Part shown: positions 37,802 to 41,535 of the stretch, in pieces
How positions within the stretch are numbered: position 1 is the first letter of the stretch
Layout: every line of letters begins with the position of its first letter
Source of the DNA: Sphingomonas sp. So64.6b
GTDB taxonomy: Bacteria > Pseudomonadota > Alphaproteobacteria > Sphingomonadales > Sphingomonadaceae
Direction: 5' to 3'
DNA: 64,000 bases
Assembly (NCBI RefSeq): GCF_014171475.1
Contig: NZ_CP048817.1
Coordinates: 3,596,001-3,660,000, forward strand
The notes under the pieces: generated by a model
What the model was told of the DNA's origin: nothing
What the model saw: only the letters and a program-made list of their open reading frames with translations
The model's database searches: none
Program-made: the position numbers and the translations under genes

Positions 37802-38589
37802 TCAAGCGCGGCGAGCCTTTCCGAACTCGGCGGCCATTCGGCCGAAGGAGCCAGCTTGCATACACGCTATCTGGGCGTGCTCCTCCAACCGGATGACCGC
37901 CGCTAGATCTCCAACCATTGCTGCTTGCGCGAGTATCTCCCTGGTCTTTCGCAGCCGCAAAGGCGATGTAGCGAGCAGGTCCTCGACCAAGGTGCGCGCG
38001 GCGCACTCGAGTTGATCGTCATCGACTACTTCCGGCACGAGGCCGATGGCGACTGCCCGGTCAGCCTGAACGAAGCGGCCTGTCATCATCAGCTCGGCCG
38101 CAACGGATGTGCCGAGCATTCGCGGGAGGAAGTAGCTCGTGCCCAGCTCGCAGCCTGAAAGGCCGAGACTTACGAAGGTCACGTTCATCTTGGCGCTGGA
38201 TCCGGCGATGCGGAGATCTGCGGCGAGCGCCAAATTGAAGCCTCCTCCGCATACGGCGCCGTGGATCGCCGCCACTATGGCCTAGGGACATGAGCGCATC
38301 TTGAGGATGATGTCGCTCCGCGACGGTCCCGGGCCTGCGTCGGTCGATCCTGCCGGAATGATCGCGCCGGGTTCGTTCAGCCAGGTAAGATTAAGCCCCG
38401 CACAAATCCTTTCCCCGCGCCGCGCATGACAACGACGCGGCGGGAGTAGTCGGCCTGGAGTCCGTTGAAATAAGGCCACAACTCGCGCACCATCGTCGCG
38501 TCAATAGCATTGAGGCGCTCCGGCCGGTTAAGGGTCAACCAATCAACCTCCCCTTCCCGGGTAATGCTGATCGCGGTGCAATCGTTCAT
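37802..38589 (-). pseudogene. Broken enoyl-CoA hydratase/isomerase
   Basis: Starting MNDCTAISITREGEVDWLTL, the frame proceeds normally to GAGKGF near 38400. A missing base then shifts it: the conserved FCAGL reads as FVRGL. The correct continuation, AGLNLTWLNEPGAIIPAG, is in the next frame, and ends at a TAG (38281-38283) placed inside what should be the strand before AAIHGAVCGGGFNLALAADL. The remaining 157 codons to 37802 are intact. One frameshift plus one nonsense change therefore inactivate an otherwise full-length gene, which suggests recent loss. A sequencing error cannot explain both lesions easily. Confidence 0.85.
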
Positions 38590-38774
38590 CGTCCACCTTC
38601 TGTCATTTCGGCGAGCATGGGATACGTCGAGACTGTCGAAGGCCGATGAATAGCTTGCCCCTAAAGCGGATCATCCGTCGTCGAGAATCCACCATTACCT
38701 AGGCTCAGGACCTATTAAATTGGTTGCGTGAGGGGTGATTGGTTGATTCAATGGCGGCGCAAGGAGGCGCGGTC

Positions 38775-39535
38775 ATGACTGATTTGATTTGGCTATCGGA
38801 GGCGCAGATGCGGCGGATAGAGCCGCCTTTCCCGCTGTCGCACGGCGTGCCGCGTGTCGATGATCGGCGGATCATCAGTGGGATTATCTTCGTGATCAGG
38901 AAGGGTCTGCGGTGGCGCGATGCACCCGCCGACTATGGTCCGCCCAAGACGATCTACAACCGCTTCGTCCGCTGGAGCCGGTTGGGTGTGTTCAACAAGA
39001 TCTTCGCAGGCCTCGCAGCAAAGGGCGGCAGGCCGGATCGGTTGATGATCGATGCGACCCACCTGAAGGCGCACCGCACGGCGGCCAGCCTCCTCAAAAG
39101 GGGGATGTTCCCCGACGTATCGGACGCACCAAAGGCGGCCTGAACTCGAAGCTCCATGCTGTGTGCGATGGCCAGGGTCGGCCGCTGATCATGCTGCTGA
39201 GCGAGGGGCAGATGAGCGACTATAAGGGTGCCGCTCTCATGCTCGATACCTTGCCCAAAGCCAAGGTCCTGCTCGGCGACAGAGGCTATGACGCCGACTG
39301 GTTCCGGGCTGCCCTGGCCGAGCGCAAGATCACCGCCTGCATCCCGTCAAAGGTAAACCGAAAGGTCCCGATCCTCCACGACACCGCGCTCTACCGCCAG
39401 CGCCATAAAATCGAGATCATGTTCGGCAGGCTCAAGGACTGGCGCCGCATCCACACCCGCTACGATCGCTGCGCCCATACCTTCATGTCCGTCATCTGCA
39501 TCGCCGCAACCGTCATCTTCTGGCTCAATCAATGA
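38775..39535 (+). CDS. IS5-family transposase made by -1 frameshift
   Basis: The first frame, from MTDLIWLSEAQMRRIEPPFP, ends at 39143. The second frame carries GRTKGGLNSKLHAVCD through GDRGYDADWF and ends FWLNQ at 39535. The frames are offset by -1 and meet at AAAAGGGGG around 39099-39107, the slippery run expected for programmed frameshifting in this IS group. The first part holds the N-terminal Tnp domain and the first catalytic Asp (MIDATHLKAH). The second part holds the other Asp (GDRGYDA) and the Glu helix (KIEIMFGRLKDWRR). The fused product would be about 253 residues and could be functional. Confidence 0.85.
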
Positions 39536-39536
39536 G
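39518..39536 (+). repeat. Internal copy of the IS5 right-end sequence
   Basis: TTCTGGCTCAATCAATGAG includes the last transposase codons and the stop. The sequence repeats, with one mismatch, at 40159-40177 beyond the passenger gene. Confidence 0.75.
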
Positions 39537-40122
39537 CCTGGTTTTCGGCGATGCGGGTCTGGAGTTGACGGATGATCATTCCGATCTGGCCCGATGCGAG
39601 GAGGCCTGGTCCGAGAGGGCCCGATCGATTCTCCCCGACCGGTGGAAAGGAACGCAGTGCAGAGCGCACGTCTGACGTCATGTGTTGCAATTGCCACCTG
39701 ATTTCGTTCTCGGCGGCTTCCGCTTGATCTGATGCGGCGAGACTGGCGGCTTTTACGGCATATCCTGCTGCTCCCAGCGCATGTGCACCCATATGGCAGA
39801 TCGCTGAGGCTTGGCCGGCGGCTTTGGCTGCTGCTGCAGCCGCGGGCGAAATCCCATGGGTTGCATTGCCTCCGCCAAAGCGTCGACGTATTTCCTCAGC
39901 AGTGTTCGCCTGTCCTCGAGCAAAAGCTCGCGTCCGGGCAATGGCGGCACGAGGGCGATCATCGTGGGGGTTTTCAGCCTCAAACAACCACAGGACTCGG
40001 TCTGCACAATCGGCAGCCCATCCAGCAACCGAACGCCTGTCGGATTCGCTTAACGTCTGCACAGACTTCGCCAATTCTACAATTCCATCGCGCTTCGATT
40101 GAAAGTTTTGTGAGCTTGGCAT
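39529..40122 (-). CDS. Imm5-like immunity protein carried in the IS element
   Basis: The ATG at 40122 (MPSSQNFQSKRDGIVELA) is the most natural start, as the open frame extends only to a TTG near the IS end. The 197-residue product contains VAGWAADCADRVLWLFEAEN near residues 32-51, DDRPRAAIARTRAFARG near 54-70 and GQASAICHMGAHALGAAGYA near 101-120. This matches the all-helical putative immunity protein family (Imm5) paired in other bacteria with polymorphic toxins. I recognise the family by these motifs, not by a search. The stop codon overlaps the transposase stop region by 7 bp in the opposite direction. No toxin gene is nearby, so its partner is unknown. Confidence 0.7.
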   Translation of the reverse strand: MPSSQNFQSKRDGIVELAKSVQTLSESDRRSVAGWAADCADRVLWLFEAENPHDDRPRAAIARTRAFARGQANTAEEIRRRFGGGNATHGISPAAAAAAKAAGQASAICHMGAHALGAAGYAVKAASLAASDQAEAAENEIRWQLQHMTSDVRSALRSFPPVGENRSGPLGPGLLASGQIGMIIRQLQTRIAENQAH

Positions 40123-40158
40123 GTTGCAGGATCTCGCCGCCAAATCCAAACGAGCCGA

Positions 40159-40177
40159 TTCTGGCTCGATCAATGAG
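40159..40177 (+). repeat. Distal copy of the IS5 right-end sequence
   Basis: TTCTGGCTCGATCAATGAG is followed by TCCTGAGCC, which completes the inverted repeat with the left end at 38702. It is a near-exact copy of 39518-39536. Confidence 0.75.
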
Positions 40178-40186
40178 TCCTGAGCC

Positions 40187-40707
40187 TAAAACATGCATAT
40201 CGGCAGTCGATGCCGCCAATGCGAACGTCATCCTAATCATGACCCAGAAAAATGGGGCGGCGCAGCCTCCATGCAGAAAACAGCAAATGACGCAGTGGGG
40301 GCGCCCCCCGGCCTATTGCGATTTGCGTGCCATAAATTCCGCAGGTCGCGGAGCGACGGCAACAGCCATTCTTTCGAGGAACATCGCGAGTATGGAGCAG
40401 TTCTGTTGGACGGTGCAAGCAGCCACCAAATCGCACCCCCTGTGCGGGCCGTCGAACGGAGCTCAAGCAGGCCTCAGGGTGGTCGCCACGATGTTCCCGC
40501 TGAAGACATTCAGAAAATCAATCCTCGTCGGCATAAGGGAACGGAAGACATCCAGCGGTGCACGATCTTAGAAGGACGCCGATGGTTTTCGAAATCCCCG
40601 CAGCGAGAGGGCAGCGCAAGTCCTGACAACGGCCCTCGCCTTAGGGCATTTCTATTCTGCCGGAAAAATCTGTTCGAAGATTAAGCTGCGGACTCAGCCG
40701 CGGACGG
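40187..40707. other. Region between the IS5 element and the SDR gene
   Basis: About 520 bp without a gene I can support. Several short frames exist on both strands, but none shows family motifs. It may be decayed catabolic DNA like other gaps in the island. Confidence 0.35.
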
Positions 40708-41535
40708 TCACAGACTCAGGCCACCGCTCACCGATATGACTTGGCCGCTGATGTAGTCGCTTTCCGGCGCGCAGAAGAGATAGATGGCGTTCGCGGCCTC
40801 CTCCGGCTTGCCGGCGCGTCCGAGCGGGATCATATGGGCAAGAGAATGCAGCGTGGTACCTGGCACCCCAGCTTGGATTTCCTTGCCTTCGATGACGATG
40901 CGGGATTCAGCATCTTCCATCGCCCTGGTTAGCCGCGTCTCGATAAAACCGAAGCTCACGCAATTGACGCACGTTTTGTAGCGGCCCCATTCCTTCGAGA
41001 GCGTCTTTGTCATGCCTATCATCGCGGCCTTTGCCGACGAATAGTTCACTTGGCCAGCATTGCCGTGGGTGCCGGCCATAGACGAGACGTTGACGACCTT
41101 GCGGATCACTTCGCGACCTTCAGCAGCCTCCTGCTTGGCGAAGGTACGGATCGCATCGGCCGCCGCTCGCAAGATGCGGAATGGCGCTACGGTGTGAACG
41201 TCCAGCATCTTCTGGAATTGCACATCGGTCTGCTTTTGGATGACCCCATCGAGCGTATAGCCGGCATTGTTGACGATGATGTCCAAGCCATTGAATTCGT
41301 TGAGCGCAGCCTGCACGAAGCGCTCCCCGAAATCGGCATCCGTTACGTTGCCGACGCACGTCGCGGCCTTGCCGCCAGCCTCGCGAATGTCTCGAACCAC
41401 CTCAGCGGCGGGGCCTTCGTCAAGGTCGTTGATGACAACACTTGCGCCCTCCGAGGCAAGCTTCAGGGCAAGCGCGCGACCGATCCCGCGACCAGAACCG
41501 GAAATCAGAGCAACTTTTCCCGCAAGTTTGGACAT
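40708..41535 (-). CDS. Short-chain dehydrogenase/reductase (FabG/3-hydroxyacyl-CoA dehydrogenase type)
   Basis: The 275-residue protein has SGSGRGIGRALAL near residues 12-24 (NADP-type dinucleotide motif), IVNNAG near 86, the catalytic Ser in VNVSSMAG and the YSSAK active site near 169. It ends SGQVISVSGGLSL, as FabG-like enzymes do. It contains an internal stretch FGFIETRLTRAMEDAESRIV seen in acyl-CoA-linked SDRs of steroid or fatty-acid clusters. It faces away from the CoA ligase operon at 42381 across 845 bp and may provide the 3-hydroxyacyl-CoA dehydrogenase step. Confidence 0.9.
   Translation of the reverse strand: MSKLAGKVALISGSGRGIGRALALKLASEGASVVINDLDEGPAAEVVRDIREAGGKAATCVGNVTDADFGERFVQAALNEFNGLDIIVNNAGYTLDGVIQKQTDVQFQKMLDVHTVAPFRILRAAADAIRTFAKQEAAEGREVIRKVVNVSSMAGTHGNAGQVNYSSAKAAMIGMTKTLSKEWGRYKTCVNCVSFGFIETRLTRAMEDAESRIVIEGKEIQAGVPGTTLHSLAHMIPLGRAGKPEEAANAIYLFCAPESDYISGQVISVSGGLSL

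Follow-up and report, generated by a model that had tools for sequence, protein, structure and literature searches.

Composite transposons consist of directly repeated insertion sequence (IS) copies flanking a gene, and elements of the IS427-like group duplicate a TA target and have their transposase encoded by two frames that overlap. An IS carrying a passenger gene is designated a tIS, and ISDsp3 of the IS6 family is a single-copy example according to PMC7986276. Here we analyzed a 64,000-nucleotide stretch of Sphingomonas sp. So64.6b (contig NZ_CP048817.1, positions 3,596,001 to 3,660,000; the window), in which an IS element of 1485 bp (38702..40186, with TA adjoining both outer ends) carried an immunity-like gene of the PF21805 family. 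This gene, unrelated to transposition, lies between the two ends. The element has the anatomical features of both the IS5 family and tIS, and its cargo is unusual; no IS5 element with an immunity passenger was found in the literature searched (titles and abstract starts of open-licence papers). It resembles ISDsp3 in being a single-copy IS with an unrelated gene, but differs in its IS5 affiliation, its named immunity-like cargo and a visible tail duplication. As in a composite transposon, the gene has an IS-derived right end on either side, both oriented alike, whereas the second copy amounts to only 28 bp. The ends and the duplicated tail were located as follows (window coordinates, strand in parentheses).

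38700..38701 (no strand): TA beside the left end, a candidate target duplication, TA being present here also in most relatives shown
38702..38711 (+): left terminal inverted repeat GGCTCAGGAC, from inverted-repeat search and exact 10-mer count
39518..39536 (+): first copy of the 19-bp IS tail, followed by CCTG in place of TCCTGAGCC, so that the end is now incomplete
40159..40177 (+): second copy of the 19-bp IS tail with one mismatch, from direct-repeat search
40177..40186 (+): right terminal inverted repeat GTCCTGAGCC, from inverted-repeat search and exact 10-mer count
40187..40188 (no strand): TA beside the right end, read from the sequence

The terminal 10 bp were perfect inverted repeats, and relatives had ends of the same kind. 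Both GGCTCAGGAC and GTCCTGAGCC occurred exactly once in the window in those orientations, and the 17-nt inverted arms including the adjoining TA were 88% complementary. The outer ends at 38702 and 40186 are the sole matched pair at present, whichever route formed the element. The transposase stop codon was found at 39533-39535 and the right end 651 bp further on. The tail after the transposase was TTCTGGCTCAATCAATGAG, then CCTG, and the second copy, with a complete end, appeared 641 bp on. The two tail copies were identical at 18 of 19 positions; chance is an unlikely source of this repeat, as 15 of 19 was the highest match among 500 base-shuffled versions of the element body. The second tail constituted a complete 28-bp IS right end with TA, while the damaged inner end fits either a 1-bp deletion (one T) with the loss after CCTG, or a 7-bp loss between GAG repeats. 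As the tail TTCTGGCTC.ATCAATGAGTCCTGAGCC of the relatives comes directly after the transposase, the displacement of the right end is real, and the observed anatomy of a displaced right end with an intact gene within the IS was confirmed.

The transposase was encoded by the following features.

38775..39143 (+): first transposase reading frame, 122 amino acids, matching Pfam DUF4096 (1.4e-21) and NF033580 (2.4e-28, 99.4 bits)
39086..39535 (+): second transposase reading frame with stop, 149 amino acids scanned, matching NF033580 of the IS5 family (6.3e-45, 153.7 bits)
39096..39104 (+): AAAAGGGGG run within the frame overlap, a candidate slippery site that would join both frames by frameshifting

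Both frames were open and overlapped each other. The NF033580 cut-off of 110 bits applies to the whole protein; the first frame, corresponding to only half of it, stayed below this value, and the second alone exceeded it. The second frame also contained Y..R...E......K, which we take to be the transposase signature for IS5-type membership. TA flanked both ends of the element and those of most relatives shown, and the element is presumably IS427-like, judging from the TA target and the two-frame transposase.

The segment between the two tail copies contained the passenger gene.

39537..40158 (no strand): passenger segment of 622 bp, absent from the short relatives read
39529..40122 (-): Imm5_like gene, 197 amino acids from ATG, matching PF21805 (5e-29, 101.2 bits, cut-off 25)
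40075..40152 (-): upstream stretch of the passenger gene, of which 40094-40151 (58 bp) aligns with the pre-gene region of homologue locus L003

The initial annotation had described an IS5-family element with its right end about 650 bp past the transposase, a repeat of the transposase-end sequence there with one mismatch, and an opposite-strand gene at 39529-40122 with Imm5-like motifs. The family was borne out by the transposase profile matches and the short terminal inverted repeats, and the end position and the repeat agreed with our measurements. The open reading frame (ORF) also exists, its product containing WAADCADRV, DDRPRAAI and AHALGAAGYA; the Imm5 profile search proposed there gave the PF21805 match, and no other immunity model matched. 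The lengths and starts of family members suggest that translation starts at TTG 40074 (181 amino acids) rather than at ATG 40122. The passenger protein kept 84 of the 86 columns showing at least 95% conservation in 120 homologues (query included), and dN (nonsynonymous substitutions) was 0.16-0.19 against a dS (synonymous substitutions) of 0.93-1.69 in comparison with four of five homologues, the fifth (L077) giving a dN of 0.23 with dS not computable. The gene is thus a maintained one and not debris.

The stop codon of the passenger gene was located inside the first tail copy, and the capture would therefore have cut at or near the native gene end. The closest homologue (81%) stops one residue past a shared RIAE stretch, and the window protein continues for four. 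The upstream alignment with L003 starts at a distance of 8 bp from the second tail copy, and 2 of 300 shuffles scored at least as high. The same count was obtained for L007, but the best local alignment there runs across the IS tail. The upstream regions of L012, L076 and L077 gave no alignment signal (scores reached by 78, 203 and 293 of 300 shuffles, respectively). Since 40094-40151 aligns upstream of the gene in L003, the cargo may consist of little more than the gene itself and a portion of its control region. A promoter scan detected no sigma-70-like site in 38600-40400.

The normal form of the IS was examined in relatives without the passenger. The search for the right-end tail with at most two mismatches gave 26 sites in 15 genomes (295 genus genomes, own included), and the IS body abutted the tail at all 25 sites outside the window; at nine of these, a contig edge left no more than about 60-100 bp of the body visible ahead of the tail. 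The left-end search gave 56 sites, 30 of which were read as loci, and a right end was within reach at 17. These measured 834-863 bp in 15 cases, 422 bp in one shortened copy and 1485 bp in the window. Among the 13 loci without a right end, six were cut by contig ends, one (L137) had an inserted IS110-type element, and six had no recognizable end in the 1.5 kb read. Relatives were also present in 668 plasmid records, none of which covered 80% of the 1485-bp query. The complete short copies read had a proper inverted repeat at the transposase end and no passenger, which answered the question of the short form raised by the initial annotation. One of the relatives, on the Sphingobium sp. TomTYG72 plasmid AP027337 (L051), was 84.5% identical over query positions 1-839 and shared the ends, TA neighbours, two transposase frames and tail sequence with the window element, but was about 0.84 kb long with the tail directly after the transposase and no passenger. 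As the tail of the relatives directly follows the transposase, the window form is derived, and it is unique in everything searched; this arrangement indicates derivation, not mobility.

Other disturbances of the right end were also seen among the relatives. Locus L055 (G370:C2:46000-55000) contained a 2183-bp unit bounded by IS5 ends; a second captured gene was considered and rejected, as translation of the stretch revealed an IS110-type transposase (identified by eye), which makes it an insertion. The same junction was shared by L060 (G508:C28), and L083 (Sphingobium sp. RC1 plasmid AP027307) had an analogous insertion annotated as IS110. The IS110-type elements in these three loci sat within the final bases of the right tail, as though it served as their target site. 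The 83%-identical IS5 copy of Mesorhizobium japonicum pMLb (NC_002682; L052 and L061) breaks off after the same ...CAATGAG tail position, with no right end in the following stretch read.

Two formation routes fit the data, namely a composite whose second copy was deleted to its last 28 bp, and a fragment joined into the tail with a 19-bp duplication. The interpretation we favour, to which we assign about an even chance, is that one IS5-family element had its right end pushed outwards by a captured gene, and moves and expresses this immunity-like gene. Two intact ends, two open transposase frames, a damaged inner tail copy and an intact PF21805 gene were directly observed. The capture would have taken a nearly minimal gene and some upstream DNA, by way of a second directly oriented IS copy or of break repair copying the tail twice. 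The transposase would then act on the ends at 38702 (left) and 40186 (right) as a pair and carry the gene along as a tIS, and the passenger, which reads towards the transposase, would be expressed from its own upstream stretch.

The complete 28-bp right end with TA in the second tail, together with the damaged right end in the first, can also be explained by two same-orientation IS5 copies that formerly lay on either side of the gene. Damage to the inner right end of the first copy and deletion of the second to its last 28 bp would have left a relic for which mobility is not required. Directly repeated IS copies around a gene are, moreover, a standard structure. An IS6 case is described in PMC7986276. 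This route, however, needs two separate deletions, neither the left end nor either transposase frame is damaged, and the only other trace of the IS found in the own genome is a 43-bp match; we regard such a decayed composite transposon as somewhat unlikely.

In another route, a gene fragment entered the tail of a resident IS by staggered-break repair duplicating 19 bp, and the unit has never moved since. The 622-bp insert indeed lies between direct 19-bp duplicates of its target, and the tails of relatives take other insertions, as with the IS110-type elements of L055 and L083. On the other hand, no donor gene was found above 44% identity in the own genome or above 45% in congeners, so that foreign DNA would be needed in any case, and the mismatch between the tail copies requires a later mutation. 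We consider insertion in place improbable. The own genome encodes two further PF21805 genes, each 44% identical to the passenger over the matched part. Residence of these genes in copies of the same IS was rejected, because the transposase was not found around either; five proteins near them were PurH-like, polysaccharide-synthesis, NAD-binding and HxlR proteins and one without a family, none being a transposase. The 294 other genus genomes contained no passenger homologue above 45% identity (at most 11 candidates scored per genome). Homologues at 66-74% were detected in two species of other genera in an order-wide search of 396 genomes, and a contig scan of the GTDB species set gave 10 homologue loci at 65-75%, where the transposase of the passenger IS was not found within flanks of up to 4 kb. 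Both the IS and the passenger gene look foreign to the lineage by sequence comparison, which fits joint arrival; a larger transferred segment would do as well.

Several results weigh against a mobile unit that was captured and spread as favoured above. The initial annotation had proposed capture of an immunity gene by an IS5 element and its travel by transposition. The tail duplication and the Imm5-type cargo supported the first part, but the second lacked support, as the search for the 1485-bp unit at other loci found none, an outcome that the initial annotation had itself named as refuting. It was absent elsewhere in the own genome, where the 43-bp stretch was the only other IS match, from the 294 congeners (two candidates scored per genome), from the 668 matching plasmid records, and from a scan of genome contigs with the passenger protein, which finds close relatives only. 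Plasmid proteins matched the passenger only over a 57-residue piece on Sinorhizobium meliloti pB, the right flank (40187-40720) had no relative on plasmids, the stretch 39480-40200 matched no phage, and viral contigs searched with the passenger protein and the right-end pattern gave no passenger-bearing unit. No usable empty site was obtained from either flank searched separately, and the flanks showed poor conservation across 60 relatives. That the gene travels with the element is plausible. A unit able to move would offer an orphan immunity gene a very small means of spread and would give a clear snapshot of a simple IS turning into a transposon by shifting its end beyond an adjacent gene; an immobile one would still be a well-preserved passenger capture with a visible scar. 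The broadest claim, that a standalone gene for immunity to DYW-like deaminase toxins is spread by a minimal IS5 unit capable of moving itself, is highly doubtful. If true, resistance to a rival's toxin could pass from one replicon to another unaccompanied by the toxin gene.

The predicted immunity role draws on the family name and a weak fold match. The best match of the predicted passenger structure was PDB 7JTU (weak, 9% identity), an entry that contains the DYW-like DNA deaminase toxin SsdA and SsdAI, its all-helical immunity protein (PMC7901873), and we infer that chain B is SsdAI. A 2012 survey ties Imm5 to DYW deaminases. The passenger product would accordingly resemble SsdAI in its all-helical structure and similar size, and may bind and block a deaminase-type toxin; SsdAI, in contrast, has a known toxin partner, and the passenger protein has no known one.

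It is nevertheless quite possible, at somewhat below an even chance, that the immunity label is wrong and that a widespread, strongly conserved helical protein with another role was carried by chance. Of the 8000 candidates scored in the homologue search, 6020 matched (E 0.001 or better), and among the matches listed 119 besides the query were 63-81% identical, including Pseudonocardia and Mesorhizobium entries. Immunity proteins diverge fast, and this conservation therefore counts against the label. Two DUF416 chains also matched the predicted structure. From the ORFs of 11 homologue loci, ten proteins at six of the loci were selected, and these included no toxin family (glyoxalase-like, YchF, DnaX, sigma factor, trypsin-like, dienelactone hydrolase and PadR proteins), nor did the window neighbours scanned (transposase, short-chain dehydrogenase, two enoyl-CoA hydratases and an AMP-binding enzyme). 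Both results also weigh against the favoured interpretation, and the placement beside a toxin gene that marks a polymorphic-toxin immunity gene was not seen among these neighbours. The family name, the fold match to the toxin-immunity entry and the survey speak for the label. The passenger protein matched no solved structure by sequence, no NCBIfam family and no defence-system family, and the phage-family search gave only two weak matches (E 0.07). The Imm5_like subfamily was very common in metagenome proteins, many listed homologues being on contigs shorter than 4 kb.

Looking for a polymorphic toxin elsewhere in the genome had also been suggested; RHS-repeat frames were indeed found, but none near any of the three PF21805 genes. 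These possible polymorphic toxins were open frames of 4135, 1375 and 4469 amino acids at about 437 kb, 1.83 Mb and 5.02 Mb of the own-genome record G000:C1. Three terminator-like hairpins were present in 38600-40400 (shuffles, 1.3 with a standard deviation of 1.3), two of them at the passenger junctions. To the left of the IS, an enoyl-CoA-hydratase-like gene (37802-38592, minus strand) was split over two frames and looks broken.
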